A DNA stretch of 37,427 bases. It comes from Gammaproteobacteria bacterium. GTDB taxonomy: Bacteria; Pseudomonadota; Gammaproteobacteria; Eutrophobiales; Eutrophobiaceae. Numbering within the stretch: position 1 is the first letter of the stretch; each line of letters opens with the position of its first letter. The translations under genes and the position numbers were made by a program. The stretch spans positions 1-37,427 of the forward strand of contig JAJRTU010000322.1 of NCBI GenBank assembly GCA_024278135.1, given 5' to 3'. Below, piece by piece: positions 10,555 through 30,105 of this stretch. The notes under the pieces are model-generated. The model was not told the origin of the DNA, made no database searches, and saw nothing but the letters and a program-made list of their open reading frames with translations.

Positions 10555-12216
10555 TTACTTCGGCGTACAGGGGTGGACAATCAAAGAATTCCTTCCGTAG
10601 CCCAGTAACTCATCATCGCTGATTTTGAAATTATTCATTCTTACCGTGTGATAGCGGTCAAAATACTTCTTCAGGTGCTTCTCAATACCGATATCAAAAT
10701 CCGGTTTGACGGTATGGATGGCACCGGCCGGGGCGCTGACCACCTTCCCGTTCTTTACTACTATTTCCCCGTCCTTAAACACATATTCCGGTTTGGTAAA
10801 CATCTTTTCCTTGTTGGAGTGCTCAGCGTACACAGTGATATCCGCACAGGCGTTCATACCCAGGTGTCCACGATCTGTTAAGCCCAGGCTAAGCGCGGGT
10901 GCGGCTCTGGTCATGATGGCGATCTCATAAAGTGAGTATTCTCTGTCTATACTGCCGAGTACTGATGCCTTGCGTGCACCTTTATTAATGGTGCTCAGTA
11001 CATCATTGCGAAAGGATCTGTCCATTAACAAACGGATCAGATGTGGATACATGGTAAACGGTGCGCCGTTAGGATGATCGGTCGTCAGGAAAATACGCCA
11101 GGGATCGGTGGCCAGTAAAAATATTTCCAGGCCGATACACCATTGCAGGGCGTTGACAAAATTTTTGTCCCGGTAACGGAAAGGAACGACGCCGCAGCCG
11201 GCATCACATTCAATATCCATGCAGACCCATTTATTGGGGTGCGCATGGGCGCTGCCTTTGTGTTGCATCATGGTATCGCCGGATGCGGTGACGGTCTGGC
11301 CGAACATAATCTGGCCGACGTCCAGAGAAATGTTTTTGTTTTTATTCAATGCTTCGGCAATATGCACAGCACCGGAAGAAAATTTTCTATCACCTTCAGC
11401 CCCGTAACTGTGAAACTGAACATGGGTAAGATGTATGGGCAGACCTGCCATGGCTTCAATGGTATTCAGAGTCGTGCCGACATTGCCGGGCACACCGAGA
11501 TTACAACCGTGAACATGCAGGGGATGAGGTACACCCAGATCGTGCAGCGAGCGTGCCAGAACCTTGAGTATTTTTCGCGGGCTGAGATTGTAAAATGAAT
11601 TATAATCATCAAGATCAAGCTTACGCTGATTGAATTTAAACGCGTTAATGCCACCGGGGTTCACTATTTTCACAGCCATTGCCTGTGAGGCATGCATACT
11701 CCAGGCGACGTAATCATTAATCATTTTTTGACTTTTCCTGCCGGCAATGAGCTGCAGGAGGAAGTCATCATTGCCCAACAGATTATAGGCACCGGTATCA
11801 ACAATGGGGGTGTCCGCCATTTCCATGTGTGCCTGACGTGCATTACTTGGGAGCATGGCCGGTTCGAAACAACTGGTGTATCCCATTTCCGCATAACGAT
11901 AACCGGTGGTGAGAGTGGAAGGCGCAACAACGCCGCTTCCAGCCCGGGTGGTGGCCGTGGCTTTTGCCGGATGTTGCTGATGATCCTCTGGCAGCATCAT
12001 ACGGGCGATATTGACTTTGCCGCCACCTATATGCGTGTGAATATCGATACCACCGGCCATGACCACCTTGTCAGTAATATCAACAGTCTTGTGTATGCGT
12101 TCGCTTTTACCCGGTTTGCGTACGATCCTGCCGTCGCGCACATAGATATCGCGCTTTTTCCCCCTGACATTGTGCATGGGGTCATACACAATCCCGCCTT
12201 TCAGTCTTGTCAGCAT
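10555..12216 (-). CDS. fhcA: Formylmethanofuran dehydrogenase/Fhc subunit A (amidohydrolase), paralogue 2
   Basis: GGIDIHTHIGGGKVN, AVKIVNPGG, HPLHVHGCNLG, HLTHVQFHSYG, TTDHPNGAPF: binuclear amidohydrolase ligand motifs retained. Confidence 0.92.
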   Translation of the reverse strand: MLTRLKGGIVYDPMHNVRGKKRDIYVRDGRIVRKPGKSERIHKTVDITDKVVMAGGIDIHTHIGGGKVNIARMMLPEDHQQHPAKATATTRAGSGVVAPSTLTTGYRYAEMGYTSCFEPAMLPSNARQAHMEMADTPIVDTGAYNLLGNDDFLLQLIAGRKSQKMINDYVAWSMHASQAMAVKIVNPGGINAFKFNQRKLDLDDYNSFYNLSPRKILKVLARSLHDLGVPHPLHVHGCNLGVPGNVGTTLNTIEAMAGLPIHLTHVQFHSYGAEGDRKFSSGAVHIAEALNKNKNISLDVGQIMFGQTVTASGDTMMQHKGSAHAHPNKWVCMDIECDAGCGVVPFRYRDKNFVNALQWCIGLEIFLLATDPWRIFLTTDHPNGAPFTMYPHLIRLLMDRSFRNDVLSTINKGARKASVLGSIDREYSLYEIAIMTRAAPALSLGLTDRGHLGMNACADITVYAEHSNKEKMFTKPEYVFKDGEIVVKNGKVVSAPAGAIHTVKPDFDIGIEKHLKKYFDRYHTVRMNNFKISDDELLGYGRNSLIVHPCTPK

Positions 12217-12219
12217 GAT

Positions 12220-13494
12220 CTACATCGCCTGCCTTATTCTGCGCAGGATGGCACTGCCTTCGTACAGGTCAATCTCCCGCAGTTTTTTCAGGGGCAAACT
12301 GACTACGTTATCCGTGCGCAGCAGGTTCCCGCTATGATCGATACCGGGTGTACCGAGCGGGATATATACTTCAGCCTCGTGCGCAGGTCTTTTAGCCGGT
12401 CTCGACAGGACAATCGTAGGCAGGGCTGTACGTGGTACAGCCAGGCTGGTATCAAAGCTGGAGAGCCATAACAGGGCATCTGCCGCCTTCTCGTGAAGAA
12501 TATTTTTTGTTGAAAATGTATGGGGATCATAATCAATCCGGTTTTCATGATAGCTTACCCGCAGAGGAAAACCGCTTTGCCAGGCGCATACGTTCATAAA
12601 AGAGGTTCCGCCATTGTTGCCACCCAGCGAAAGACCTGAAAAACGGGAATGTTGATTAAGTTCTTTCACCAGATCACAAATGCTTTGTATGATGATATCA
12701 CCGTCTGTCGGCGCAAATTCACCGGCATCCCAGATAATGACACCATATTGTGCACTACGGATGCGTTCGACCAGTTTTTTCAGGGACGACAGTTTTCTCG
12801 GTCTGATATTATCAGACTGAATACGGGTATCGTTGAGCAGGGCACGAATGATCGCGATAGTTTCATTCATTTCCTTTTTAGTGCACTTGATATGTGCCGG
12901 TCTGCGTCCACCGGGATGGATGCCCGCCCGGGTGTTCAGTTCGTCACCGATATAGACGATGTCACGGGCGTTCTTTTTCAGCCCTGCAAGTGATGACTGG
13001 TTCCAGATAAAGCGTTCGAAAAATCGCGGGTAATGGCTGACAGCATCGGTGCCAATAAAAATAATCAGGTCGGCACGGTTTTTCAACTCAGTCAGTGTGG
13101 TCATAATCCAGCCCCTGTTTTGCAGTACAAGCGTGTTATTCATCATACCATCACCGTGGACATGATCGATGATCGCGCCGGATTTTTCAGCCAGCGCCAT
13201 CAGCTCCCGACTGCCGGCTACGTCCGTGCTACTTCCTGCAAACAGAGCTTGTTTTGCTCTGGACAGGATGGAGGCGGCATGCTTTATTGCTGCATCAATG
13301 GAAACACGCTCACCGTGAATGGCCGCCGCTACAGTCGGCTCATGCCGTTCAAAATTCCTGATAGCCCTGGCACAACCATGAGCTGTGACAGAGAGCTTGT
13401 TGGCTTCATTTTTGACAGACAGATCATCGCACAACAGACTGCAAAACGGGCAGGTGACGTCCTTGATGAGTCTTGATGGGTGATTTGAAGACAT
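12220..13494 (-). CDS. fhcB: Formyltransferase/hydrolase complex subunit B, paralogue 2 (predicted redox-inactive)
   Basis: FwdB-like; TCPFCSLLCDD plus downstream Cys retained, but VCHGPS-equivalent is HVHGDG and the RGHGN-equivalent is LGGNN. Confidence 0.87.
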   Translation of the reverse strand: MSSNHPSRLIKDVTCPFCSLLCDDLSVKNEANKLSVTAHGCARAIRNFERHEPTVAAAIHGERVSIDAAIKHAASILSRAKQALFAGSSTDVAGSRELMALAEKSGAIIDHVHGDGMMNNTLVLQNRGWIMTTLTELKNRADLIIFIGTDAVSHYPRFFERFIWNQSSLAGLKKNARDIVYIGDELNTRAGIHPGGRRPAHIKCTKKEMNETIAIIRALLNDTRIQSDNIRPRKLSSLKKLVERIRSAQYGVIIWDAGEFAPTDGDIIIQSICDLVKELNQHSRFSGLSLGGNNGGTSFMNVCAWQSGFPLRVSYHENRIDYDPHTFSTKNILHEKAADALLWLSSFDTSLAVPRTALPTIVLSRPAKRPAHEAEVYIPLGTPGIDHSGNLLRTDNVVSLPLKKLREIDLYEGSAILRRIRQAM

Positions 13495-13609: not shown

Positions 13610-14986
13610 CTAGTCCAGCAGCTCAAGCATTTCAGCGATGTAGGTATACTTCTCTCGGGGTTTGTTTTTAGGTCGACCTCGATCAATTTCGCTTTGATCG
13701 ATTTTTTTCCATTCCTCAAAATTGACATAGCGAACGCTCCTGGATTGTAATAATTTGCACACCCCGTCGGCGCCGCTTTTTTCTGATCCGGTATCAAGCA
13801 TTTCCAGATCATCCAGCAAGGATTTAACTGTTGCAACGCTATCTGCACGGTTGGTGCCAATGATACCAGTTGGCCCCCGTTTAATCCAACCACTCACATA
13901 TAAACCTGAAATGGGCTGACCATTCTCTGTTATCCGGCCATCCTCATTGGTGATCACACCCTTGCGATCATCAAAGGGCAGACCGGGCAGGGGGACACCG
14001 CGATAGCCAATGCTTCTAAATAGAAGTCCCGTCTCCAGCTCCAGTGTTTCGCCAGTACCCCTGGCAGATTGTTGCAGGGGCTCACCGACAAGTTGGTTAC
14101 GTTCTAATATTACCTTTTCCAGTCGTTCAGTGCCGATTAATTCTTTGGGACTTTTTAGAAAGGTGAACTGGCAACGGCGTGGTTTACTGGAATCGCTGAT
14201 AGCGGAAAAGCGGGCTAATTGCTCCACTATTTTTCGCTGGACAGAATTTGACTTGTCGGCCAGTTCGATTTCACTTGCCGGGTTTAACTGCAGTTCCTCG
14301 CTGTCAATAGTGGTCTGGCATATTTCCAGGTTTCCAAACTCCCTCAACTCCTTCGGGGTAAACTTGACCTGGGCGGGCCCACGTCGACCTACTACCACTA
14401 TTTCCTGAACCTTGCTGTCAGCAAGCGCATCCAGAGCATGTTCGGCAATATCGGTATGTTTTAACTCATCAACGGACTTGGCTAGAATACGGGCCACGTC
14501 AGCAGCGACGTTGCCCTGGCCAATGATGACGGCCCTTTCACAACCAAGATCAAAGTGTCGGTCACGATAATCTGTATGGCCATTATACCAGCCGACAAAT
14601 TCAGTCGCAGTATGACTTCCGATCAGGTCTTCTCCGGGGATACCCAGTTTGCGATCAGACTCTGCACCGTTGGCGAAGATGACCGCGTGATGTGTGTCAG
14701 ATAACTCTTCTACACTGATATCCTCGCCGACGGTGACGTTGGCAAGCAGATTGAATTCAGGTGATTCCGCGATCCTGGCGTATACCTGAATTACCTGTTT
14801 GAGTTTGGCGTGATCCGGTGCGACGCCGCTGCGCACCAGGCCATAAGGAACAGGCAGGCGTTCCAGCATAGTAATAGTGACGTTGACATCAGATTTTAAC
14901 AGTGCTTCCGCCGCATAAAAACCACTTGGGCCACTGCCCACGATAGCGACGAGCAGGGGATGTTGTTTAGAACCAGGATGTGACAT
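13610..14986 (-). CDS. Ferredoxin-NADP+ reductase, adrenodoxin reductase/FprA type
   Basis: VAIVGSGPSGFYAAEALLK FAD motif, LPVPYGLVRSGVAPDH, IGQGNVAADVARIL NADP motif, GWIKRGPTGIIGTNRADS. Confidence 0.93.
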   Translation of the reverse strand: MSHPGSKQHPLLVAIVGSGPSGFYAAEALLKSDVNVTITMLERLPVPYGLVRSGVAPDHAKLKQVIQVYARIAESPEFNLLANVTVGEDISVEELSDTHHAVIFANGAESDRKLGIPGEDLIGSHTATEFVGWYNGHTDYRDRHFDLGCERAVIIGQGNVAADVARILAKSVDELKHTDIAEHALDALADSKVQEIVVVGRRGPAQVKFTPKELREFGNLEICQTTIDSEELQLNPASEIELADKSNSVQRKIVEQLARFSAISDSSKPRRCQFTFLKSPKELIGTERLEKVILERNQLVGEPLQQSARGTGETLELETGLLFRSIGYRGVPLPGLPFDDRKGVITNEDGRITENGQPISGLYVSGWIKRGPTGIIGTNRADSVATVKSLLDDLEMLDTGSEKSGADGVCKLLQSRSVRYVNFEEWKKIDQSEIDRGRPKNKPREKYTYIAEMLELLD

Positions 14987-15064
14987 GCTTAATGGTTAAC
15001 CTTATAGAATATCGGGCAGCCGCCCCCGCCCGGGGGGCCACTGCCAGGCTGGAACAGCGGTGAA

Positions 15065-15370
15065 TTAGAACCCCAGTTCAGTCTTTCTGTCATCGGCACC
15101 TGGCAGAGGTTCCATCTTATCTTCACAGACAGGGAGATCCCTGGCGCGTTCAGCATTGATGGCAATCCATTCTTCCATTCCTTCTGGCAGATCATCGACT
15201 TCATAGATCGCTTCGACGGGGCACTCGGGAATACAGGCACTACAGTCTATACAAACATCCGGATCGATATACAACATGTCGTCGTCGTAGTGAAAACATT
15301 CTACTGGACAAACTGTAACGCAATCCGTGAAACGGCAGCTTTTGCAGTTTTCTGTGACTATGGTTGTCAT
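15065..15370 (-). CDS. fdxA: 7Fe (3Fe-4S/4Fe-4S) ferredoxin, FdxA type
   Basis: NCKSCRFTDCVTVCPVECFHYDDDMLYIDPDVCIDCSACIPECPVEAIY typical of Azotobacter FdI-type ferredoxins. Confidence 0.93.
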   Translation of the reverse strand: MTTIVTENCKSCRFTDCVTVCPVECFHYDDDMLYIDPDVCIDCSACIPECPVEAIYEVDDLPEGMEEWIAINAERARDLPVCEDKMEPLPGADDRKTELGF

Positions 15371-15410
15371 TCTTATCTCCTACGATAATAGTTAATACGA
15401 ATTCGTTTTT

Positions 15411-16220
15411 TCAGTCATGATACAACAAAATTTCACCCCGGTTTAACTCGATTATATCACCACACCATCGCGCATAGCGCCCCATAATTTGCTGTTCACG
15501 GATGTCCAGCCCCAAAGTTTGAAGATAGAGCAGATACAACCTTAAATAAACGGGCTGGTAGACACAGGAGTAGCTGAAAGTGGGCAGCAGTCTGGTTTTG
15601 TTCATGGAAACAAGTGTGCCTCGACGCATCCCGGCACCGCTTCTGATGCCCGGCTCACCCAGCACAATAATCGTACCGGCAAGCATGTTGACGCCGGTAA
15701 AATCACCGCTATTGCCACCGACGACGATCAAGCCATTTCTCATGGCGTGGCCGACTTCATTTTGGGCATTGCCATGCACGATGATTTCGCCTCCCTGGAT
15801 ACCAGCGGGACTCCCCCTGTAGGCACTGCCCAGCATATGGCCGACATTGCCCTTGATCTGTATGCGGCCACCACGCATTTCCGGTGCCACCCAGTCGCCG
15901 GCATTGCCTTCCACCATAATTTCACCGCCGCACATGGCCGCACCGAGATGAGCACCAACGTCCCCGACGATATGTAATTGACCAAAGCTCATGTCGGCGC
16001 CGATATGCTTGATGCGGGACAGATCACCATCGACCTGGATGCGCTCGTTCTTTTCGCCTTCCACTTTAAAAAAATCACCGATACAGCAGGGCTCGTTACC
16101 ATGTTGTACGAGCTGCTTTTCAATCTCCGTCGTCGTCAATGTCGCCAGTTTGTCCGGGCTGATGACAGCAGCTTCCAATGGTACCTCGGGAAGAGTATGC
16201 AATGTTAAGGTCGTATTCAT
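15411..16220 (-). CDS. fhcC: Formyltransferase/hydrolase complex subunit C, paralogue 1
   Basis: FwdC Gly-rich repeats (GAAMCGGEIMVEGNAGDWVAPEMRGGRIQIKGNVGHMLG); 4-bp overlap with fhcD1. Confidence 0.93.
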   Translation of the reverse strand: MNTTLTLHTLPEVPLEAAVISPDKLATLTTTEIEKQLVQHGNEPCCIGDFFKVEGEKNERIQVDGDLSRIKHIGADMSFGQLHIVGDVGAHLGAAMCGGEIMVEGNAGDWVAPEMRGGRIQIKGNVGHMLGSAYRGSPAGIQGGEIIVHGNAQNEVGHAMRNGLIVVGGNSGDFTGVNMLAGTIIVLGEPGIRSGAGMRRGTLVSMNKTRLLPTFSYSCVYQPVYLRLYLLYLQTLGLDIREQQIMGRYARWCGDIIELNRGEILLYHD

Positions 16221-17116
16221 GCCGGGTCACCGTCCATCAGGCTGTGCAGTTCGATTTTATACTGGCCGAGATTACCGCCGTAATTACCGGCTGATATACG
16301 TTTGATACCCGGCCTTGCCGCTGCCTGCATACCGACTCGCATGGCGTTTCGAACGGCAGATTCATCAAGACCATCAACAACAATTTCCAGTACACAATTT
16401 ATATCGGAATCCAGTGCTGAATCGGGTTTTATTCCACGCAGGGTGGGGCAGTAGCTGTCATTGGTTGAGGCCATCAGGGATTTGTAGCGCGAACCCACTT
16501 TACTGCCACTGCGGACAACGCCATCAGGGAAGGGCAGGATCACACCTTCGACAGAACGCATCGCCCGGGTCGCGGCGTTGACGGCACGTAGTGTTGTTTT
16601 CATATCTTTGCCAAGGAGTATAAGGTTGCCACCTCCTACTGCCTCCTGTATGCCAAAACGGTCATCTACCAGAAACTCGCCGTCCATCACCGGGATACGC
16701 CAAAGACGTTGACCCGCCAGTTTTTTACTGATTTGCAGGCCATCACCAAAGTAGCGTAACTGGCCGCCGACCACGACAGATTCTTCGCTATCAAGCCCGC
16801 TGTAGCAGGCCGTTGTCGGGCAGGTCATCACGCATTGACCGACACGTTCGACCAGGCGTTTGCCGATGCCCTTGCTGTCCATGGTGAATAACAGGACACG
16901 TACTCCAGGTCGTCGATCAGGTGTTTCATCGGCGGGCATTTCACTTTCGATACCTGCTTCACACTTGCAGCCGATGACGGAGGTGGCAAAACCGGTCATG
17001 GAATTCGCCGCCGCCATAGCCCATTGTCGTGTCTCGGCCGTGATCACTATTCGTGTCGCCCACATTTTGAAGGCTTCGGCGAAGGTGTCATCAATTTGAG
17101 TTGACTTTATTTTCAT
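16217..17116 (-). CDS. fhcD: Formylmethanofuran:H4MPT formyltransferase, paralogue 1
   Basis: IDDTFAEAFKMWATRIVITAET, CVMTCPTTACYSGLD, VVRSGSKVGSRYKSLMASTND. Confidence 0.95.
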   Translation of the reverse strand: MKIKSTQIDDTFAEAFKMWATRIVITAETRQWAMAAANSMTGFATSVIGCKCEAGIESEMPADETPDRRPGVRVLLFTMDSKGIGKRLVERVGQCVMTCPTTACYSGLDSEESVVVGGQLRYFGDGLQISKKLAGQRLWRIPVMDGEFLVDDRFGIQEAVGGGNLILLGKDMKTTLRAVNAATRAMRSVEGVILPFPDGVVRSGSKVGSRYKSLMASTNDSYCPTLRGIKPDSALDSDINCVLEIVVDGLDESAVRNAMRVGMQAAARPGIKRISAGNYGGNLGQYKIELHSLMDGDPA

Positions 17117-17201
17117 TATTTAAAATAAGTTACCGATATTTTTGTAAAGATTTGTAAATCCAATACCCGATCTTTTTTCTCTCAAAAATGCTGGAGCAGG
17201 C

Positions 17202-18848
17202 TCACTGTTGATTTACTGTTGGAATAATTTCATGGTCCCCCAGATAATTATCGTCGATCGCATAATTATCGAACTCAACAGAATAATAGTCTTCGAAGAA
17301 AGGTTTAACAGAGTCAACTATGGTGCCGTCATAATCGGGTGCCACATGTAGAATACGGCCACTGTGATCTTCACGAAATTCATGATTGGCAATAACAGCA
17401 ATGCCGGATTTGAAAACATAACGCGGTGCATTGAACATTAATTCCTTGTCTTCCTGATCATCATAGATGGTGATATCCGCATCGGCTCCGACACCGAGAT
17501 GACCCTTGTTGTTCAGACCTAGACACCTGGCCGGGCCGGCACGGGTGATGATGGCAATTTCGTTTAGCGTATATTCCCGGTCGATATCCGGTAACAGAGT
17601 GCGATTAATGGCCTTCTTGTTGGCACGTGACAGCTCTTCTTTTCTGAATGCGCTGTCCATCAATAATTTAATCAACTTGGGGTAATTCATGAATGAGCCG
17701 CCGTTAGGGTGATCAGTGGATAAAATGATGCGCCAGGGATCTTCCGAGAGTAGAAACAATTCCAGCCCTATGGCCCACTGCAGGGCATGCACATAGATGT
17801 GTTCCTGATAAGCGAAGGGGATAATGCCACAGCCACTCTCACACTCGGTATCGGCATTGACCCATTTTCCTTTGGTAATGCCACGCAGCATATAGGCCAG
17901 CGGTGCATCGGCTGTCATGATGGTAGACTTGCCAAACATCACCTGACCCACGTCGCAAGAAATATTCGGATGACTGTTGACGTAGTCGGCAATCTCCTGC
18001 GCGGCGGAGGTCGGATTCTTGCCCAGCTCGCCGGCGTAACTGTGGAACTGGATATGGGCAAGGTGCGCGCGCCGGTCACCTGCCGTGCGCATGGTTTCAA
18101 GCGTGGTATTGAAATTACCGCTATGGCCGAGATTATTGCAGTGGATATGCGGCGGATGGGGCAGCCCCATCTCACCTGCCACATCAATAAAGGCATCGAT
18201 TATTTGCCGTGGGCTGATATCCGTGGCATCCAGTTTTTCGTCTATGTCGGATACATTGGAATTACGCCGGCCTTTCCAGGGTTCATCACCTCCTGGATTC
18301 ACCAGTTTGACCGTGTAGGCATTGGTGGAATTGATCCACCAGGCGACAGCGTGTTTGAATTCCTCCTGGCGACCTTCTTTTAATAATTGATTCAGAAAGA
18401 TATTATTGCCCAACAGGACATAGAAGCCTTTATCGATTACCGGTGTGTCGTGTAATTCTTCCAGTGTATGGCGGGCCCCTATCGGGGTGACTGCCGCTTC
18501 CATCGCCGTAGTGTAACCCAGCGTGGCATAACGATAGCCGGTGGCGAACGTGGACGGGACGGTGCCACCGCTGCCGGAACGCGTGTGCAGTGTGCCGGGA
18601 TGGGGATCGTGACGGTGATCTTCCGGTTGTAATTTACGTGCTAAATTGACCTTGGAGCCCGCGATATGGCAATGAATATCTACTCCGCCGGGCATGATGA
18701 CCATGCCGTGAGCATCTATCTTCAGCGCGTCAGCCGGGACGGAATCAACAATTTTTCCATCTTCAATACAGATGTCCTGTAGCAGGCCATCAACATTGTT
18801 GATGGGGTCATAAACTTTCCCGTTGGTGATACGGATATAAGATGCCAT
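17202..18848 (-). CDS. fhcA: Formylmethanofuran dehydrogenase/Fhc subunit A, paralogue 1
   Basis: GGVDIHCHIAGSKVN, TVKLVNPGGDEPW, HPPHIHCNNLG, HLAHIQFHSY, STDHPNGGSF. Confidence 0.95.
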   Translation of the reverse strand: MASYIRITNGKVYDPINNVDGLLQDICIEDGKIVDSVPADALKIDAHGMVIMPGGVDIHCHIAGSKVNLARKLQPEDHRHDPHPGTLHTRSGSGGTVPSTFATGYRYATLGYTTAMEAAVTPIGARHTLEELHDTPVIDKGFYVLLGNNIFLNQLLKEGRQEEFKHAVAWWINSTNAYTVKLVNPGGDEPWKGRRNSNVSDIDEKLDATDISPRQIIDAFIDVAGEMGLPHPPHIHCNNLGHSGNFNTTLETMRTAGDRRAHLAHIQFHSYAGELGKNPTSAAQEIADYVNSHPNISCDVGQVMFGKSTIMTADAPLAYMLRGITKGKWVNADTECESGCGIIPFAYQEHIYVHALQWAIGLELFLLSEDPWRIILSTDHPNGGSFMNYPKLIKLLMDSAFRKEELSRANKKAINRTLLPDIDREYTLNEIAIITRAGPARCLGLNNKGHLGVGADADITIYDDQEDKELMFNAPRYVFKSGIAVIANHEFREDHSGRILHVAPDYDGTIVDSVKPFFEDYYSVEFDNYAIDDNYLGDHEIIPTVNQQ

Positions 18849-18897
18849 TAAATTCTCAAACCTGAAATGATTGTTTATTAACGTGTTGTCAAATAGT

Positions 18898-20256
18898 TTA
18901 CTTCAACGGTGCGGCGACTTTTGCGGTGCCCGTTCCCCGCGCCTGGTATTTTGCTGTCACCAGCTCATGTACCCGTTTACACAAGGGCGTCAGTATGTCT
19001 TCATCAGATGGAAACGGTGATTCAAAAGCCGGGCGCAGCGTTATCGGCACATCGTCCATGCGATAAACGGTGCCCCCCGTGTTAATGCCGTAGGTGGAGG
19101 TACGAAAGGCAACATGGGCCAGCCTGCTGGTTTCTGTCTCCTTGGTGTCGAAAGATATCACCGGAATTCTGTGCAGTTGATCAATGGCTGCCTGCGGGAA
19201 GTTGGCAGCAGGATCACTGGCGATAATCATGGCCGCATCTGCATCACCTCTGATCAGCGTATCTACTGTGGTAAATTCGCCGGGATTGAAGCGCGGGTAG
19301 CCCATGCTGAAATTAACTCCAAAGGGGTAGCCGGTTTGCCAGGCAACAACATTGTCCGCGCCTGTCACGTTGCCATGTCCGCGAACCGGCTTGGCAACAA
19401 AATGGGTAAATTCATTCAGATCCGTTGCCAGTGCCATGATGGCGCCGGAATTAAAATGGCGCCCTCTGGTCATCGTCAGACCCATACCCATAAACAGCAC
19501 GCCATAGTTGCAGTTTTTCATCTTATCCACTAAATCTTCCAGCGCCTCCAGTGATATACCGGTTTCTTCTTCAATGGAAGCATCGACAGCGTGGCCTTTT
19601 ACCAATGCCCGCAAAGCCCAGGCCATTTCAAAGTCCTTGCCGGGTTTCACCTGCAGGAAAATATTGGCGACGGGGGTACTGGGGGTTCTGCGGACATCCA
19701 CGATGACCACGGTGCGATCTTTCTTGCCGTTGGGCGTAAACATGCCTTTGGGTGTTACGGTGTAGCGGGTGAAGTGGCGGGGATGGGATTCCGCCGGATT
19801 GCCGCCCCAGTACATAACAAAGTCAGCGCGATTTTTCACTTCACCCAGTGTCATGGTGCTCTCGCCGACACCCTGAAAGGCCAGGCCGGAAGGACCATGA
19901 CAGACGGAAGTGGTGGTATCGATGGTGCCGCGAATGTAGTCCGTGATCGCGACTGCCTGTCGTTGTGCCTCACAGGTGGTGTCGCTGAGGCCATAGGTGA
20001 TGGGGAACCTGGCTTTGGTCAGCACCTGAGCGGCCTCTTCAATGGCGGCTTCGACGCTGACTTCTTCGCCATCAATCATGGCTGCCGGTCCTGACTGGAT
20101 AGTATGTTCTGCAAACCAGGCACGCCCCAGAACGCAGGCATTTTTGGCTTTGGTGATTTGCTTTTTATCGAGATCGACGGTCAATTCCATATCATCACAG
20201 ACACAACCGCAAAATGTGCAGGTAGCGTTCTTTACAGTCCTGATGTTTTCACTCAT
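18898..20256 (-). CDS. fhcB: Formylmethanofuran dehydrogenase-like subunit B, paralogue 1, with archaeal-like redox motifs
   Basis: ATCTFCGCVCDD, NACVLG, TSVCHGPSGLAFQGVG, VRGHGNVTGADNVVAWQTGYPFGV. Confidence 0.93.
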   Translation of the reverse strand: MSENIRTVKNATCTFCGCVCDDMELTVDLDKKQITKAKNACVLGRAWFAEHTIQSGPAAMIDGEEVSVEAAIEEAAQVLTKARFPITYGLSDTTCEAQRQAVAITDYIRGTIDTTTSVCHGPSGLAFQGVGESTMTLGEVKNRADFVMYWGGNPAESHPRHFTRYTVTPKGMFTPNGKKDRTVVIVDVRRTPSTPVANIFLQVKPGKDFEMAWALRALVKGHAVDASIEEETGISLEALEDLVDKMKNCNYGVLFMGMGLTMTRGRHFNSGAIMALATDLNEFTHFVAKPVRGHGNVTGADNVVAWQTGYPFGVNFSMGYPRFNPGEFTTVDTLIRGDADAAMIIASDPAANFPQAAIDQLHRIPVISFDTKETETSRLAHVAFRTSTYGINTGGTVYRMDDVPITLRPAFESPFPSDEDILTPLCKRVHELVTAKYQARGTGTAKVAAPLK

Positions 20257-20293
20257 GTCTTCGTCTCGTCATGTCTGGTGTGAATTGAGTTTA

Positions 20294-20641
20294 TCATGCC
20301 GCGATTTTTTCCACCTGCACCTGAATATTCTTTGAAATGGGCATGCCACAGCCGCCGGTGTCACCTTCCATCAGCCGACTGGAAGAAGGGCCGTATGCGA
20401 TAAATATCATGCCGGTGGGTAAATCCCGGGGTTTTTTACTCTTGCAGCAGGCGATGAATTCGCCAATGGCATTACTCAGTTTGACACTGTCACCGTCATG
20501 CAGATCCATTCTCTGCATATCGTCTTCGTTCATTTCCACAGTGGAAGTGATCTGAAGATATTCTTCTTTCAGTTTTCCTTTGTTCAGGGATGTTCCCTGT
20601 TTATTGGAACGACCAGGAATTAACAACATGGTTTCAGACAT
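20294..20641 (-). CDS. FwdD/FmdD-like molybdopterin dinucleotide-binding subunit
   Basis: LIPGRSNKQGTSLNKGKLKEEYLQ...MNEDDMQRMDLHDGDSVKLS...LPTGMIFIAYGPSSSRLMEGDTGGCGMP resembles archaeal FwdD; first gene of the fhc operon. Confidence 0.85.
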   Translation of the reverse strand: MSETMLLIPGRSNKQGTSLNKGKLKEEYLQITSTVEMNEDDMQRMDLHDGDSVKLSNAIGEFIACCKSKKPRDLPTGMIFIAYGPSSSRLMEGDTGGCGMPISKNIQVQVEKIAA

Positions 20642-20932
20642 TTATGGCTCCAACATAGCGCAATATGATTTAGGTAAGTGTATTTGCTTATCTCAGGACT
20701 AGATAAAGGCCGCGCTTTCAATCAATTGGATCCTGGATGGTATTTTACCCAGTGATTTTGATTATGGCTAGTGTTACTCCATTATTCCGTCAATGCGGTG
20801 CAGTGTTGAATTTCATGTGAGAATGGAAGGCTGTATGCTGGCACCCGAATTAGTCAAAAATGAAACAGTGCAGTACTATAGCGTCGATATCGTAATTGAC
20901 GTCGAGAATCGGGCAATTATAGCGGAGTGACT

Positions 20933-21967
20933 ATGCGCGAAAAGAGTGATGTGTTTGTAAAAGTAAATGCGCCGGGGCGTTTGCATCTGGGTTTTCTGGA
21001 TTTACATGGCGGGCTGGGCAGGTTATTTGGCAGCCTTGGTTTGAGTTTGTATGATATTTCCACAGTCCTGGAAGTCAGGCAGGCATCAGAATTACAGGTT
21101 GAGGGTCCGAGTTCGGCAAGAGCGCGTCAGTACGCTGAACGTATGCTGGAGCATTTGAATATTCGTAAAGGCCTCAGCATTGAGATCCATCGGGCCATTC
21201 CCGAACATGCGGGTCTGGGCTCGGGTACGCAGATGGCGCTGGCCGTCGGTTCGGCCATAAGCAGGCTTTTTTCTGTCAAGCTGTCTCTACCAGCTATCGC
21301 CAGGATACTGGATCGAGGCAATCGTTCCGGAATCGGCATTGGTGCTTTTGCCGGAGGGGGCTTTATCGTCGATGGTGGCAGGAGTTCAACAACTGAAGTA
21401 CCCCCCATCGTCAGTCAATTACACTTTCCTGCCAGTTGGCGTATTGTTCTGGTACTGGATAAAAATTGCCAGGGCGTGCATGGGCAGGAAGAAAGCCAGG
21501 CTTTTGGAACCCTGGCAAAAATGGAGAAAGAAATTTCCGAAAATTTGTGTCGATTGACACTCATGCAGGTTTTGCCCGCCATTGTGGAGCAGGATTGCCG
21601 CTTGTTTGGTGCCGCGATTACCGAAATACAGGCTTGCATGGGGAGGTATTTCGGGACGATTCAGTCCGGTATTTATGCCAGCGCCGAAGTAGGCAAGGTA
21701 CTGACACATTTGCAACAGTCTGGCGCTGCCGGCATAGGCCAAAGTTCCTGGGGGCCGACGGGTTTTGCCATCTATGCCAGCGAGACCGAGGCTTATCATG
21801 CCTTGAAGAAGGTGCGTCGTCACTGGCAGGGAAATTCGGCGCTGGAGATGGTGATCTGTCGAGCGCAAAATGAGCCGGCGATGCTCAGCCTGGAAAAGGC
21901 GAGCGACGAAGGTGAGGTGAGTCTGTCCAGTCAGGCCGGGGGAGTGAACGTCCGGAGCGAACAGTAA
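20933..21967 (+). CDS. Beta-ribofuranosylaminobenzene 5'-phosphate (beta-RFAP) synthase, H4MPT biosynthesis
   Basis: GHMP-like: VNAPGRLHLGFLDLHGGLGRLFGSLGLSL, IPEHAGLGSGTQMALAVG, SGIGIGAFAGGGFIVDGG, GQSSWGPTGFA. Alternative GTG start at 20927. Confidence 0.92.
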   Translation: MREKSDVFVKVNAPGRLHLGFLDLHGGLGRLFGSLGLSLYDISTVLEVRQASELQVEGPSSARARQYAERMLEHLNIRKGLSIEIHRAIPEHAGLGSGTQMALAVGSAISRLFSVKLSLPAIARILDRGNRSGIGIGAFAGGGFIVDGGRSSTTEVPPIVSQLHFPASWRIVLVLDKNCQGVHGQEESQAFGTLAKMEKEISENLCRLTLMQVLPAIVEQDCRLFGAAITEIQACMGRYFGTIQSGIYASAEVGKVLTHLQQSGAAGIGQSSWGPTGFAIYASETEAYHALKKVRRHWQGNSALEMVICRAQNEPAMLSLEKASDEGEVSLSSQAGGVNVRSEQ

Positions 21968-22019: not shown

Positions 22020-22925
22020 ATGAAAGATCCATATTTATTACATATATTCAACCCTACGAAGAATGTCAGCCCCTTTGATGTCAATATGGCATATGAGGCG
22101 GATTTTAATGGTGTTATTCCTTACAGCAATGTCACGTTGGAAGAAGTCTATGCCTTAACGCAGGATACTATTTTTTCCCGTGGCAGTACCGGCGTCAAGC
22201 GCACCGGTATTTTTATTGGCGGGCGAGAATTTGGTCTGGCCATCGATATGCTGAACCAGGCCAGAACAGCCATGGTGCCCCCGTTTGAAGTCTCGGTTTT
22301 TGCCGATCCCAGCGGCGCCATCACGACTGCCGCAGCCGTTATCGCTGCTGTGGAGATCTGGATGCTTAAGCTGTCAGGCGAGGATCTGGCCGGTAAAAAA
22401 GTCCATATATTCGGTGGAACAGGGCCGGTTGGAATATGTGCTGGTATCCTGGCCTCCCTGTGCAAGGCGGAAGTGTCCATTACCAGCCATCGAGGCGCTG
22501 ATGTCGCGCAGCGTATAGCTGATGAATATAACGGGCGTTATAAAGTGGATATGCGCGGTGTGGGTAGCGGGACGGCTGAGGATATCCTGGCGTTTCTGGG
22601 TGAGTCCAATGTTGTCATCGGTGCTGCCAAGGCCGGTATCAGGGTCATGAGCAAGGAACAAATCGAACAGGCTGAGAGTCTGATAGTCGCAGCCGATATC
22701 AATGCGGTTCCTCCCGCCGGTATAGAAGGTATTGACGTCAACGACATGGGTGTGGAACTGCCCCATGCACCGGGTAATGCGGTCGGTATCGGTGCCCTGG
22801 CCATTGGCAATCTGAAATACAGAGTTCACTATCGTCTGTTTCAAATGATGAAGGAGGCGGAGAAACCGGTATATCTTGATCATATCCGGGCCTTCGCTGT
22901 TGCCAGAGAGCTGGCAAAGGGATAG
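22020..22925 (+). CDS. mtdB: NAD(P)-dependent methylene-H4MPT dehydrogenase
   Basis: LLHIFNPTKNVSPFDVNMAYEADFNGVIPYSNV, FADPSGAITTAAAVIA, VHIFGGTGPVGICAGI. Confidence 0.95.
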   Translation: MKDPYLLHIFNPTKNVSPFDVNMAYEADFNGVIPYSNVTLEEVYALTQDTIFSRGSTGVKRTGIFIGGREFGLAIDMLNQARTAMVPPFEVSVFADPSGAITTAAAVIAAVEIWMLKLSGEDLAGKKVHIFGGTGPVGICAGILASLCKAEVSITSHRGADVAQRIADEYNGRYKVDMRGVGSGTAEDILAFLGESNVVIGAAKAGIRVMSKEQIEQAESLIVAADINAVPPAGIEGIDVNDMGVELPHAPGNAVGIGALAIGNLKYRVHYRLFQMMKEAEKPVYLDHIRAFAVARELAKG

Positions 22926-22979
22926 ATTGTCTTTGACGCCGTTATTTGTAATTCACACGGAGGTCTTTATTTAGCTATC

Positions 22980-24023
22980 TTGAGTCAGTTGGGCCAGGAC
23001 AGGGAATTAACCCAATTACTAAATGTTATTTTGATGGCTGCAATGAATACAGAAAATGTAACAATCTTTCCCAGTCTGAATCAGCGTACTGCACCGATGG
23101 TTCAGTCTTTGGTTGAACACGCACTCGATCTGCGTTTGTCCGTCACCAGTCTGGAGAACAAGACCACGATAATTGATGCCGGTATTGCTGTTGTCGGTGG
23201 TCTGGAAGCCGGCCGGCAAATCGCGGAGATATGCATGGGTGGTCTGGGCCAGGTGAATCTCAGGGCATCGACTCATTTTGAGCAATGGTCATGGCATGTG
23301 GATGTACATTCGGGTAATCCGGTACTTGCCTGCCTGGCAAGCCAATATGCCGGCTGGAGTCTGTCCCATGGAGAAGGTAAGGAGGCATTCAATGCGCTGG
23401 GTTCCGGTCCGGGACGGGCGATGGGCAGCAAGGAAGCCTTGTTTGAAGAACTGGGCTATCGCGATCAATATGACAATGCCTGTCTGGTGATCGAAGTTGA
23501 TAAGTTGCCACCCGTTGAAATCGCTGATGAAATAGCCCGGCGTTGTCAAATTCCGGCAGATAAGTTGAGCTTGATCCTGACACCCACATCCAGTCTGGCG
23601 GGTGCCGTGCAAATTGTTGCCAGAGTACTGGAAACCGCCCTGCACAAGGCCCATGCACTGGGTTTTGCTCTTGATAAGATAGTCGATGGTGCCGGTAGTG
23701 CACCTGTTTGTCCGCCGTCTCCAGATTTTTTAAAGGCAATGGGTCGAAGCAATGATGCCATCCTCTTTGCCGGACAAGTGCAGTTGTATGTTGATGCGGA
23801 TTCGGCCGATGCCGAGCAGCTCGCCAATAGTTTGCCGAGCAGTGCTTCGTCCGATTATGGTCAGCCCTTTGGTGATATTTTCAAAGCAGCCGGCTATGAC
23901 TTTTACAAGATCGATCCCATGTTATTCAGCCCGGCCCGAGTATCGGTCAGTTCCGTGAAGACGGGTGATACATTTCATGCCGGGCACATCGATCTGGATC
24001 TGTTAAATCAGTCTTTTGCTTGA
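22980..24023 (+). CDS. mch: Methenyl-H4MPT cyclohydrolase
   Basis: AGRQIAEICMGGLGQVNL, SGNPVLACLASQYAGWSL, GSGPGRAMGSKE, GAGSAPVCPPSPDFLKAMGRSNDAI. Start uncertain: TTG 22980, ATG 23034 or ATG 23043. Confidence 0.94.
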   Translation: MSQLGQDRELTQLLNVILMAAMNTENVTIFPSLNQRTAPMVQSLVEHALDLRLSVTSLENKTTIIDAGIAVVGGLEAGRQIAEICMGGLGQVNLRASTHFEQWSWHVDVHSGNPVLACLASQYAGWSLSHGEGKEAFNALGSGPGRAMGSKEALFEELGYRDQYDNACLVIEVDKLPPVEIADEIARRCQIPADKLSLILTPTSSLAGAVQIVARVLETALHKAHALGFALDKIVDGAGSAPVCPPSPDFLKAMGRSNDAILFAGQVQLYVDADSADAEQLANSLPSSASSDYGQPFGDIFKAAGYDFYKIDPMLFSPARVSVSSVKTGDTFHAGHIDLDLLNQSFA

Positions 24024-24942: not shown

Positions 24943-25090
24943 CTGGACAGTTACCTGATAAAGCATTGCAAATCCGCAGAGTGAAGCTCTGAAGATTGGC
25001 GACTTACGGGGGCTATTCCGCTGTCGAAGTAACAGGACAGAAAAATAGCGATTCTACATATTCAGATAATAGTAATTGGAGGAGATAAAA

Positions 25091-25603
25091 ATGGCAGTGA
25101 TAGATAAAGTACTAGTTGGTGAAGCATTGGTGGGTGACGGCAATGAAGTTGCACATATTGACTTGATCATGGGGCCACGTGGAAGCGCCGCAGAAACAGC
25201 TTTCTGTAACGCTATAACCAATAATAAGGATGGTTTCAGCACCTTGTTGGCGGTGGTATCACCTAACCTGGCCTGCAAACCCAACACCATTATGTTTAAC
25301 AAAGTCACCATGAAAGGTGCAACCCAGGCTGTGCAAATGTTCGGCCCGGCTCAGCGCGCCGTTTCCATGGCGGTGATGGACTGTGTAGAAGACGGGACCA
25401 TTCCAGCAGACGAAGCGGACGATATCTTTATTTCTGTAGGTGTGTTTATCCATCGGCTGGCAGAAGATGATGCCAAGATCCAGGATTACAACTACGAAGC
25501 GGTCAAGTTATCGATCAAGCGTGCAGTCGCCGGCGAACCAAAGGCATCTGAAGTATTGAGCAAGCGTGGATCAGCTGATCATCCGTTCCAGGCCCACTCA
25601 TAA
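25091..25603 (+). CDS. fae: Formaldehyde-activating enzyme
   Basis: [61 protein letters not shown]. Start moved to ATG 25091 preceded by GGAGG; the track ORF begins at a TTG overlapping the SD. Confidence 0.97.
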
Positions 25604-25976: not shown

Positions 25977-26669
25977 TCAAACCGATGAATATTTTTCCAG
26001 CGCCTGAGTGCCTATTTTCCCCTCGTGCAGTGCTGTTGCCAGTAACACACCCGATACATTCTGAGTATATAAGCTCAGCAGATCATCTTCATCCCGTACG
26101 CCCCCCGCTACATAAACGCGTTTGTTGCCTGCCAGTGCCTGTATTTGTGCAAGACGGAAGGTATCGGGCCCCTGATGGCTGCCGACACGGCCAAGAGACA
26201 TAATGATAATGTCTTCCGGCCAGGCATCAATATCCTTCAGCACACTGTGATCCCCGATAAATTCATCGTCAAAAAAGTCCAGCGATAATATTGTGCTCAA
26301 TGCGGCATGTTTGTTGAGTAGTTGTTGCTGCGTAATACCGGTTTCGGAGGCGATGATATGGCGAAGCCGGGTTTAAGGAATGGTTGTCGGATAAGTATGT
26401 TTCCCCGCATCAAGCCAGAAACAGACATCAGGATGGTGATGTAACAATTCGCTGATAATCTTGTCATTGTTTCCGTCATCTTTGATAGCATTCAGGTCAG
26501 CTATATATATGTTCGTGAACGGATACAGGGACAAAAAGCCCTTGATCACCGCCAGGGGACTTGAACCATGACATAATGGTGTCTGGATTTTTTTGTAGCT
26601 CTCACGATGCCCCCTCCGGGCATGGACGACGTTTCCAGCAAAGAGATCAATGACGGGAATAATGAACAT
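25977..26669 (-). pseudogene. HisA/HisF-related protein interrupted by an in-frame TAA stop
   Basis: MFIIPVIDLFAGNVVHARRG...FWLDAGKHTYPTTIP* (26669-26373), then the same frame continues TRLRHIIASETGITQQQLLNKHAALSTILSLDFFDDEF...VYVAGGVRDEDDLLSL...GVLLATALHEGKI. Confidence 0.8.
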
Positions 26670-26696: not shown

Positions 26697-27674
26697 ATGA
26701 AATGTATATTTGTTTGTGAGTTTATCACCTGCGGAGGTATGCGTAACAGGGAGTTGCCCTGTTCATTGCTGGCCGATGCAGAGCGAATGTATCAGGCCCT
26801 GTTGTCAGATCTGCGGCAAATTGATGATCTTGATATTGTCACCTGTCGGGATGATCGGCTGTCCGGCGTGCTTGAATCTGTCGCCAGTATCACGCAGGGC
26901 GACGATGCGTGGAAATATTGGCGGCGCTGTATGGAAACAGCCGATCTGGCATGGTTGATTGCGCCGGAAACTGACGGTGTATTGTTGCGACTCAATAAAA
27001 TGGCCCGGCAAAGTGCCTGCGAACTGATTGCCTGTGATGATGATACAGTCGAATTGACGACGAGCAAGTATGCAACCAATAAATATTTGCTGGAGCAGGG
27101 TATCCCGGCCTTGATGAGTCTCAGACTGGATGACGAGTGGCTGTCCGATGACAGAGCCAGCGTTGTGAAACCTGACAATGGTGCCGGCAGCGAACAATGC
27201 TATTTTTTTCAGAATAGTGCGGAAATGTTGTCCTGGAAAAACAGCCGGGAGGCTGGTTCGCAGTATATTCAGCAGCCCTACCTGCCGGGTATTTCCGCCA
27301 GTTTGTCGGTGCTGTATGCCCGGCAGTACACGCGATTGTTGGCCTGCAACAGGCAAATGGTGGGTCTCAGGCAGGGGATGCTGGTGAATGAGGGCATCAT
27401 CGTCAACGGTTTACAGGAATATTTTGCACCACTTGAGGCACTGGCTGTTGAAATCGGTAAAAAGCTTCTCGGCTTGCGTGGCTATGTGGGGATTGATCTG
27501 GTACTGGGGGAGTCGGAGATAACAGTCATTGAAATCAACCCACGATTGACCACCGCCTACGCCGGCTTATCTGAGGCACTGAATACGAATGTCGCCGAGT
27601 TGGTCATTAATACACTGCAAAGGGAAAATCAGGGAAGCTTTTATGACAATAACACGATCCACGCAGGAGTTTGA
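26697..27674 (+). CDS. ATP-grasp ligase, MfnD-like (tyramine-glutamate ligase family), probable methylofuran biosynthesis
   Basis: MKCIFVCEFITCGGM...; VVKPDNGAGSEQCYFF; VGIDLVLGESEITVIEINPRLTTAYAGL. Confidence 0.82.
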   Translation: MKCIFVCEFITCGGMRNRELPCSLLADAERMYQALLSDLRQIDDLDIVTCRDDRLSGVLESVASITQGDDAWKYWRRCMETADLAWLIAPETDGVLLRLNKMARQSACELIACDDDTVELTTSKYATNKYLLEQGIPALMSLRLDDEWLSDDRASVVKPDNGAGSEQCYFFQNSAEMLSWKNSREAGSQYIQQPYLPGISASLSVLYARQYTRLLACNRQMVGLRQGMLVNEGIIVNGLQEYFAPLEALAVEIGKKLLGLRGYVGIDLVLGESEITVIEINPRLTTAYAGLSEALNTNVAELVINTLQRENQGSFYDNNTIHAGV

Positions 27675-27676
27675 AT

Positions 27677-28723
27677 ATGCCTGACAAAAATTATATTGGC
27701 TGGGATATTGGTGGTGCCCATTTAAAGATGGCTTATGTGCATGCTGATGGAGCGGTGTCGCAGGTCGAACAGCATGCCACTCCCTTGTGGCAGGGGCTGG
27801 GTAGTCTGCGGAGCAGATTAATCGACATAAGCCTCCGGCTTCCTGTTGATGGACTGACCCATGTTGTGACGACCACGGGCGAGCTGGCTGATCTGTTCCA
27901 GGACAGGCAGGAGGGTGTTCAGACCTTGTTGAGCGAGTTTTGTCAGGTTTATGACAGCGGGCATGTACTGGTGTATGCGGGTCCGGCAGGGCTGATTCCG
28001 GCAGCCGAGGCGGCTGAGCAATATCAGCAGGTAGCCTCGGCAAACTGGCACGCCACAGCAGAGTACGTCGCCGGACGGAAAGAAGAGGGCATCCTGGTGG
28101 ATATCGGCAGTAGTACAACGGATTTAATTCCCTTTAAAGGGGGCAAATTGTGCCATCGCGGTTATAGCGATCAGGAACGCTTGCGTTATGATGAGCTGCT
28201 TTACACCGGCATGGTTCGTACTCCCCTTATGGCCATCGTCAGGAGGCTGCCCTGTGCCGGTGAATGGCAGACGATGGCAGCCGAACAGTTCGCCACCATG
28301 GCAGATGTTTATCGCATTACCGGTGAACTTGATGAATCCAGTGATCTGCTGGCCGCGGCGGATGGTGGCGGTAAAGAAATACTGGACAGCATACGTCGAG
28401 TGGCACGTATGCTCGGCGAGGATATTCGAGATGCAAGTTCGAACAAGCAGTATTATCATCTTGCCCGCTACCTTGCTGAAGAACAGATTCATATGATCAA
28501 TCAATCCCTGCACAGGGTGATCTCTACAAACCCTGCTTTTGGCGAGCCCTGTCTTATCGGGGCTGGTGTCGGCCGTAGTTTGGCAGCGAAACTCGCTGCA
28601 AGAAACAATTACCTGTATACAAACTTTGAACAGATCCTGGATGTGAATGAGAATCAACAAACCAGAGCAGCTGATTGTGCAACAGCGGTTTCAGTGGCGC
28701 AGTTAGCCAGGTTGGCGGGATGA
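27677..28723 (+). CDS. MfnF-like H4MPT-linked C1 transfer pathway protein (hydantoinase/oxoprolinase-like ATPase fold)
   Basis: GWDIGGAHLKMAYV, THVVTTTGELADLFQDRQEGV, GILVDIGSSTTDLIPFKGG, RTPLMAIV. Start at ATG 27677. Confidence 0.85.
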   Translation: MPDKNYIGWDIGGAHLKMAYVHADGAVSQVEQHATPLWQGLGSLRSRLIDISLRLPVDGLTHVVTTTGELADLFQDRQEGVQTLLSEFCQVYDSGHVLVYAGPAGLIPAAEAAEQYQQVASANWHATAEYVAGRKEEGILVDIGSSTTDLIPFKGGKLCHRGYSDQERLRYDELLYTGMVRTPLMAIVRRLPCAGEWQTMAAEQFATMADVYRITGELDESSDLLAAADGGGKEILDSIRRVARMLGEDIRDASSNKQYYHLARYLAEEQIHMINQSLHRVISTNPAFGEPCLIGAGVGRSLAAKLAARNNYLYTNFEQILDVNENQQTRAADCATAVSVAQLARLAG

Positions 28724-30105
28724 CATCAAAACTGACGGAAATTCCCTACCGGCGTAACTCGGCTGATTTATTCAGTCTTATCGTTGCCGAACCCTGGAGT
28801 ATTTTTCTCGACAGTGGCTACCCGAATACTGACAGAGGTCGCTATGACTTCATGTCCGCACGCCCTTACAAGACCTTGACCACCTACGGAAGCCTTACCT
28901 ATATTGACGATGGGGAGAATATCCGTTGCTCGGAGCAGGATCCCTTTGAACTTATCAAATCATCTCTTGGCAAGCGCAGTCATAATCTGACCGATCTGCC
29001 ATTTTGTGGTGGTGCCATGGGGTATTTCGCTTATGATCTGGGAAGGAGAATCGAATCATTACCTGCATCTGCCCGGCATGATATTAATATACCGGATATG
29101 GCCATTGGTCTGTATGACTGGGTTGTGGTCGTGGATCATCACAAGCGTCAATCCTGGTTGACAGGACAGGAGCGCAACGCGGGTACGGAGCGGGAATGGT
29201 CAGAACTGAACGCATTATTTCATTCCGAAGCTTATTTGCGACCGGAAAAGTTTTCTGTCCGTTCAGAAGTGCAATCCAACATGGACAAGAGCGCCTATGC
29301 CAGGTCCTTTGATAAAATAAAACGCTATATACGTAATGGTGATTGCTATCAGGTTAATCTGGCACAGCGATTCAGCGTGGAAGTTCGTGGCGATCCCTGG
29401 GCCGTTTATTTGCAATTGCGCGAGAGCAACCCTGCTCCGTTCGCGGCCTATTTCAATTCGCCGGATGGATCTATTCTGAGTTCATCTCCCGAGCGCTTCC
29501 TCAAAGTCACCAATGGTATGGTAGAAACCAAACCGATCAAGGGGACGATTCGACGTGCCAGCTATGCCAATGAGGACAAGGCTCTGGCCGAACAATTACT
29601 GGAAAGTGACAAGGATCGTGCGGAGAACCTGATGATTGTAGATCTGATGCGCAATGATATCGGTAAAAATTGTGAAACAGGTTCGGTAGCGGTACCCAGG
29701 TTGTTTGCACTGGAAAGTTACGCCACTGTGCACCATCTGGTCAGTACGGTAAGTGGCCATATAAGGCAGGATCGGCAGGCGCTGGATCTGTTGCGAGGCT
29801 GTTTTCCCGGTGGTTCCATTACCGGCGCACCTAAATTACGGGCGATGGAAATTATCGAAGAACTGGAACCACATCGACGAAATATTTACTGTGGTTCCCT
29901 GGCGTACATTGGTTATGACGGCAACATGGATTCCAATATTGCCATTCGCACTCTGGCTCATCACAGGGACAGAGTGTATTGCTGGGCAGGTGGCGGTATT
30001 GTTGCCGACTCAAAAATGGAGTCGGAATATCAGGAGTGTTTTGAAAAAGCAGCGCCAATGCTGAGGTTGTTTTCAGACGGCATGACTAAACATGTGGGTA
30101 GTTAA
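28720..30105 (+). CDS. pabB: Aminodeoxychorismate synthase component I (PABA synthesis)
   Basis: Chorismate-binding domain: GDCYQVNLAQRF, SSSPERFL, ETKPIKGTIRR, DRAENLMIVDLMRNDIGK, GSITGAPKLRAMEIIEELEP. Start at ATG 28720 overlapping the preceding stop. Confidence 0.93.
   Translation: MTSKLTEIPYRRNSADLFSLIVAEPWSIFLDSGYPNTDRGRYDFMSARPYKTLTTYGSLTYIDDGENIRCSEQDPFELIKSSLGKRSHNLTDLPFCGGAMGYFAYDLGRRIESLPASARHDINIPDMAIGLYDWVVVVDHHKRQSWLTGQERNAGTEREWSELNALFHSEAYLRPEKFSVRSEVQSNMDKSAYARSFDKIKRYIRNGDCYQVNLAQRFSVEVRGDPWAVYLQLRESNPAPFAAYFNSPDGSILSSSPERFLKVTNGMVETKPIKGTIRRASYANEDKALAEQLLESDKDRAENLMIVDLMRNDIGKNCETGSVAVPRLFALESYATVHHLVSTVSGHIRQDRQALDLLRGCFPGGSITGAPKLRAMEIIEELEPHRRNIYCGSLAYIGYDGNMDSNIAIRTLAHHRDRVYCWAGGGIVADSKMESEYQECFEKAAPMLRLFSDGMTKHVGS

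Follow-up and report, generated by a model that had tools for sequence, protein, structure and literature searches.

A predicted bacterial formylmethanofuran dehydrogenase with a putative electron outlet of its own, encoded beside an Fhc hydrolase in a gammaproteobacterial contig

The window analysed in this study is a contig of 37,427 nucleotides (JAJRTU010000322.1) from a gammaproteobacterial genome assembly (GCA_024278135.1). On its minus strand lies a putative operon in the order FwdD-B-A-Ftr-C, followed by genes for an FdxA-type ferredoxin and for FprA, with intergenic gaps of -4 to 85 bases. Directly downstream of FprA come FhcB2, A2, D2 and C2 and then a formate dehydrogenase of the NAD-linked type. 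Genes for the synthesis of H4MPT and the furan cofactor, together with genes of the upstream pathway, run divergently from FwdD. The features are listed below.

20294-20641, minus strand: FwdD, predicted pterin-dinucleotide-binding subunit, first gene of the operon (115 aa, ATG start; NCBIfam, Pfam and solved FwdD chains)
18898-20256, minus strand: FwdB1 ("FhcB1" in an earlier note), predicted W/Mo-bis-MGD and [4Fe-4S] catalytic subunit (452 aa, ATG start; TIGR03129, archaeal FwdB chains, motifs, tree, fold search)
17202-18848, minus strand: FwdA1, amidohydrolase subunit, predicted site of formyl-MFR hydrolysis/condensation (TIGR03121, 704 bits, above cut-off)
16217-17116, minus strand: Ftr (FhcD-type), formylmethanofuran:H4MPT formyltransferase (TIGR03119, 427 bits)
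15411-16220, minus strand: FwdC1, beta-helical scaffold subunit (TIGR03122, 259 bits, above cut-off)
15065-15370, minus strand: FdxA-family ferredoxin (7Fe-type), proposed electron acceptor of FwdB1 (NF045490, 4e-32)
13610-14986, minus strand: FprA/adrenodoxin-type NADPH-ferredoxin reductase (FprA 1lqt_A, 2e-113; adrenodoxin reductase 1cjc, 2e-96)
12220-13494, minus strand: FhcB2, hydrolase-type B subunit (motifs: Cys/His/Arg lost, cluster cysteines retained)
10555-12216, minus strand: FhcA2, amidohydrolase subunit of the Fhc hydrolase (best PDB match M. extorquens FhcA, 6s6y_A, 2e-127)
9560-10462, minus strand: FhcD2, formyltransferase of the Fhc hydrolase (PF01913/PF02741; start codon uncertain)
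8730-9662, minus strand: FhcC2 (PF01493; gene order)
7072-8733, minus strand: NuoE/NuoF-like diaphorase subunit of formate dehydrogenase (profile matches)
4310-7072, minus strand: formate dehydrogenase alpha subunit, NAD-linked type (TIGR01591, 743.5 bits, above cut-off)
7-1752, plus strand: XoxF-type PQQ methanol dehydrogenase, truncated by the contig end (DEWDYDG motif, lanthanide type)
20927-21967, plus strand: beta-RFA-P synthase (H4MPT synthesis), divergent neighbour (TIGR00144, 165.9 bits)
22020-24023, plus strand: MtdB-like gene and Mch, H4MPT steps feeding formyl-H4MPT (Mch TIGR03120, 402 bits)
25076-25603, plus strand: Fae, formaldehyde-activating enzyme (TIGR03126, 244 bits)
26697-30724, plus strand: MfnD-like, MfnF-like, PabB-like and MfnE-like genes, synthesis of the furan cofactor and H4MPT (profile matches)

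The MtdB-like gene has no NCBIfam match and was named by its position and conserved order. The interval from Fae to the Mfn-like genes contains a short HisA/HisF-related ORF (25977-26300, minus strand). Elsewhere in the source genome, RuBisCO is present and MobA adjoins FdhD; a search of this genome for the pMMO/AMO subunit A family had no hits, which is weak evidence of absence as the genome is 88% complete.

On TIGR03129, with a cut-off of 327.8, FwdB1 reaches 507 bits and FhcB2, encoded by the other B gene in the window, 285 bits. The identity of FwdB1 is 38-43% to five archaeal FwdB structure chains and 24% to FhcB2; homology to M. wolfeii FwdB (5T5I) extends over the full length with 42.5% identity. 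Comparison with solved chains gave E-values of 3e-114 to 1e-98 for archaeal FwdB and 1e-12 for the cofactor-free FhcB of M. extorquens (6s6y). The motifs of FwdB1 are C13-x2-C16-x3-C20 plus C41, VC119-H120-GPS and VR292-GH-GNVTG. Cys13, 16, 20 and 41 align with Cys9, 12, 16 and 35 of 5T5I (the N-terminal [4Fe-4S] ligand positions), and Cys119, His120 and Arg292 with its Cys118, His119 and Arg288. Following what is established for archaeal enzymes, we take Cys9/12/16/35 to be cluster ligands, Cys118 the metal ligand and Arg288 an active-site residue; these roles are carried over to FwdB1 through alignment to archaeal sequences, which were obtained from HMMER alignment output and for which a check of the C118, H119 and R288 numbering proved correct.

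The small gene 37 bases upstream of FwdB1 matches the NCBIfam FwdD model at 2.6e-20 (72.8 bits, under the model's own cut-off of 175), contains a Pfam molybdopterin-dinucleotide-binding domain above cut-off and matches solved FwdD chains at 2e-16 to 6e-6, and on these matches it is assigned as FwdD. The earlier note, made from the letters of the window, had placed a B subunit and a FwdD-like gene here and had equated CxxCxxxC plus a fourth Cys, VCHGPS and VRGHGNVTG with the archaeal cluster ligands and active-site Cys, His and Arg. Both genes and all of these motifs are indeed found at these positions on the minus strand, and the equivalence holds in the alignment to 5T5I.

Between FwdB1 and its nearest relative (L005), NG86 dN/dS is about 0.04 (dN 0.06, dS 1.68, the latter near saturation), and dN of FhcB2 is about three to five times that of FwdB1 in the same genome pairs. 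Given this ratio and a TIGR03129 score above cut-off, the assignment of FwdB1 is not a matter of chance. A Foldseek search with an AlphaFold monomer model of FwdB1 returned archaeal FwdB first (4.6e-38) and FhcB much later (9.6e-17); the model has a modest mean pLDDT of 70.8, with the lowest confidence around the active site, and gives little beyond the sequence. Judged by its sequence, FwdB1 is a true FwdB.

We also compared FwdB-type and FhcB-type proteins across bacteria. Among 177 full-length bacterial homologues, the CHGP and RGH motifs occur in 113 of 113 FwdB-type and 0 of 64 FhcB-type proteins, so that the catalytic Cys, His and Arg are not shared with cofactor-free FhcB, a check that the earlier note had proposed. 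Eleven positions (Cys118, His119, Gly120, Pro121, Trp149, Arg179, Arg187, Asp206, Arg288, His290 and Asn292 in 5T5I numbering) do not vary among archaeal FwdB rows, reach 97% conservation or more in the bacterial ones and are missing from all 29 aligned FhcB rows. In locus counts that include a few genomes present twice under different handles (e.g. L054 and L095) as well as relatives that are not independent, a FwdD gene is adjacent in 93/96 FwdB-type loci versus 0/35 FhcB-only loci. The cysteine cluster, which the earlier note had used as a further cue, fared less well: the N-terminal CxxCxxxC is retained in 37/64 FhcB-type proteins, FhcB2 among them, although their pterin residues are gone. 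The cluster alone therefore fails to discriminate, whereas CHGP, RGH and FwdD do. The FhcB in 6S6Y is without the N-terminal cluster domain. In a maximum-likelihood tree, the root of which is not resolved, all bacterial FwdB sequences group together (100/96), and a branch with 100/100 support separates them and archaeal FwdB from FhcB.

A contig scan with FwdB1 yielded 260 relatives, 80 of which were kept. These are mainly gammaproteobacterial MAGs (Thiotrichaceae, Methylococcales and some labelled Legionellales), and Chloroflexota, Gemmatimonadota, Betaproteobacteria and Planctomycetota are also represented. We rejected the idea that the assembly had fused bacterial and archaeal DNA, as the same genes occur in 80 bacterial loci, long single chromosomes among them (L045 on OY282354.1 and L057 on OY288106.1). 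Among 274 sampled genomes of the class, scores place the FwdB type in 13 (source genome included) and the Fhc type only in 26 others; among the matches listed, three of the 13 (G039, G174 and G180) have FwdB without FhcB. In the order of a Methylococcales MAG (G279), the FwdB type occurs in 11/81 genomes. In the inspected Methylococcales genomes that are on one large contig, every B protein was of the FhcB type and had no pterin motifs. MCA2860, outside this set, is annotated as formylmethanofuran dehydrogenase B in M. capsulatus; it was important in a CRISPRi screen and, with the Rnf complex MCA2893-2899, was among the strongest fitness hits on methane (PMC13108547).

In the rest of the operon, FwdA1 matches archaeal FwdA chains at 4e-145 to 3e-123 and 6s6y_A at 4e-107. 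FdxA scores 110.6 bits on the proteobacterial FdxA model NF045490 (under its cut-off of 135), and its position downstream of FwdC is conserved in most FwdB-type loci. FprA is homologous over its full length to the solved 1lqt_A (residues 9-455). Searches of ORFs, NCBIfam and Pfam found none of the electron-relay subunits FwdF, FwdG and FwdE in the operon, which has a single FdxA-type ferredoxin instead; the polyferredoxin relay FwdF/FwdG is accessory rather than defining, since electron modules vary within the Fwd family. The FdxA and FprA pair is present in 40/52 wide FwdB-type loci versus 0/19 wide Fhc-only loci (Fisher 2e-9, a value that ignores kinship and, with duplicate and related genomes in the counts, overstates certainty). 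The outlet is not universal, because the other 12 of the 52 are without the pair. Pfam searches of ten neighbouring ORFs did not support another electron acceptor beside fwdB in the Chloroflexota and planctomycete loci. In a Chloroflexota genome, a DUF2193 protein labelled as conserved in archaea is encoded a few genes upstream of fwdD (L051:3937-5481).

The two halves of the locus also occur separately. The second half (fhc and formate dehydrogenase) is found without fwd in the stretches covered at L157 and L162, and other genomes have the first half without fhc. In L152 (G246), FprA stands beside fhcBADC without fwd or fdxA, an apparent scar of a lost fwd module, which suggests that cells with Fhc can do without the module. 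In Ca. Porisulfidus (G283, L057), the complete chromosome encodes FwdB and MobA but neither FhcB nor a formate dehydrogenase above cut-off; this gene content fits a dehydrogenase that would finish the oxidation alone. The comparison is suggestive only, because G283 also lacks FdhD and has another MopB-family protein that could need the cofactor too, and because the FwdB-only loci L016 and L035 do carry formate dehydrogenase. FdhD supplies sulfur to formate dehydrogenases and is taken to sulfurate active sites such as that of FwdB; no match to it was found in three FwdB-bearing genomes, namely G283 (L057), G288 (L080) and G289 (L084), and as a marker of Fwd use it proved inconsistent across FwdB-bearing genomes.

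Taken together, the genes at positions 13610-20641 probably code for a bacterial formylmethanofuran dehydrogenase that comes with an electron outlet of its own. Archaeal Fwd converts CO2 to formate and back at the W/Mo pterin of FwdB/D; formate travels through a cavity inside the complex, and its attachment to methanofuran or release from it is the work of FwdA (PMC11656701; PMC13397495). All parts of this chemistry are encoded here, and Ftr lies in the operon as in Fhc. In the proposed mechanism, Ftr would pass the formyl group from formyl-H4MPT to the furan cofactor and FwdA would hydrolyse it to formate, which would be channelled to a W- or Mo-bis-pterin site formed by FwdB (Cys119, His120 and Arg292) and FwdD and oxidised there to CO2, as in archaeal Fwd. 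The one [4Fe-4S] cluster in FwdB would hand the electrons on to the FdxA-type ferredoxin, from which FprA would move them to NADP+. The adjoining cofactor-free Fhc hydrolase and NAD-type formate dehydrogenase would provide a parallel exit via free formate, yielding NADH, so that the locus may hold two exits, one from formyl to CO2 with NADPH and one from formyl via formate to CO2 with NADH. The NADP+ couple lies at -0.32 V, and FprA is reversible. With the formyl-MFR/CO2 couple at -0.53 V (PMC11656701), electron transfer from formyl-MFR through FdxA and FprA to NADP+ is computed to release about 40 kJ/mol under standard conditions.

Redox activity of the FwdB1 complex is strongly predicted from the residues and FwdD, in line with the suggestion of the earlier note that the formyl group may be oxidised to CO2; the linked ferredoxin and FprA genes, unused in that finding, strengthen this prediction. 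A scaffold role of FwdB1, like that of FhcB in M. extorquens, with a complex that merely hydrolyses formyl-MFR to formate, would agree with the structural record, in which the sole bacterial relative found is a cofactor-free hydrolase (6s6y; PMC10100899). However, FwdB1 retains all cofactor and catalytic positions under strong purifying selection and has FwdD beside it, and every one of those residues is lost in FhcB-type proteins. On these grounds we rejected a cofactor-free FwdB1 and hold this reading to be hardly credible. It is also very improbable that the complex runs reductively, fixing CO2 as formyl-MFR for assimilation while NADPH and FprA reduce ferredoxin. Under standard conditions, such a reaction would cost about 40 kJ/mol, with NADPH at -0.32 V and formyl-MFR at -0.53 V, the neighbouring XoxF, Fae, MtdB and Mch form an oxidative methanol route, and RuBisCO is available for CO2 fixation, although archaeal Fwd is reversible and acts as a CO2 reductase in methanogens (PMC11656701).

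The electron acceptor leaves more room for an alternative. The complex may be redox-active and deliver its electrons to another ferredoxin user (e.g. Rnf) or to a direct acceptor rather than to NADP+ via FdxA and FprA, these two proteins being linked to the locus for some other reason. The 12 wide FwdB-type loci without the pair, the retention of FprA in L152 without FwdB or FdxA, and the wiring of Fwd to F420 rather than ferredoxin in ethane-oxidising archaea (PMC11493965) are in keeping with this, but the pair follows fwdC within one gene run in many loci and the two genes are together missing from the 19 wide Fhc-only loci, and we regard this alternative as unlikely. The preferred reading of an oxidative dehydrogenase with an FdxA-FprA outlet is weakened by the absence of FwdF, FwdG and FwdE from the operon, by the loci without the pair, by the FdhD gaps, by L016 and L035 and by the modest AlphaFold model. 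In its broader form, we lean slightly towards it: a widespread bacterial system would oxidise formyl-methylofuran directly to CO2 and send the electrons to NADP+ through FdxA and FprA as a dedicated pair, alongside a hydrolase and formate dehydrogenase route that is encoded in the same locus and yields NADH. Cells could thus choose to finish the H4MPT pathway with either NADPH or NADH, and with either CO2 or free formate. In textbook accounts, the bacterial H4MPT pathway ends in free formate and formate dehydrogenase. A working dehydrogenase would bypass free formate, save the energy lost in formyl hydrolysis and supply NADPH. The annotation "formylmethanofuran dehydrogenase" would then cover two different reactions, which a check of the two motifs plus FwdD separates, and with both enzyme versions side by side in one locus, the comparison is directly testable.

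Bacterial FwdB is not new as such. An earlier phylogeny reported none (PMC7331816), and 149 bacterial hits have since been catalogued and attributed to transfer from archaea (PMC10100899). In the literature searched, which did not extend to Hemmann et al. 2019 and Adam et al. 2019 (Nat Microbiol 4:2155), we found no description of the FdxA-FprA module, of the two-track locus or of the biochemistry of a bacterial redox Fwd. The operon shares the FwdA, B, C and D subunits, the cluster cysteines and Cys118, His119 and Arg288 with the archaeal tungsten enzyme FwdABCDFG of M. wolfeii (5T5I/5T5M/5T61); unlike it, the operon has no FwdF/FwdG polyferredoxin genes, includes Ftr, is followed by FdxA and FprA and belongs to a bacterial host with XoxF. 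FhcABCD of M. extorquens (6S6Y) resembles it in its B-A-D(Ftr)-C content, its origin in a bacterial methylotroph and its furan-cofactor-linked formyl handling, but the FhcB of that complex is without the N-terminal cluster domain, the pterin residues and FwdD, all of which the FwdB1 set has; its counterpart in the window is FhcB2, which likewise has no pterin residues and no FwdD. The Hakuba actinobacterial fwdDBA-ftr-fwdC set (PMC7325909) has the same five-gene order, is reported to have Cys118 and the 4Fe-4S domain, and has no fwdFG, but its reported context is an acetogen-like Wood-Ljungdahl pathway without H4MPT synthesis genes, and the passages covered mention no FdxA-FprA. In the F420-reducing Fwd of Ca. 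Ethanoperedens (8RJA; PMC11493965), an oxidative Fwd likewise relies on a dedicated reductase rather than on general ferredoxin; that enzyme is archaeal and reaches F420 via subunit FwdI, whereas the operon in the window is predicted to use a soluble ferredoxin and FprA to reach NADP+. By every core feature testable from sequence, the operon is a member of the Fwd family, new in its electron outlet and its context.
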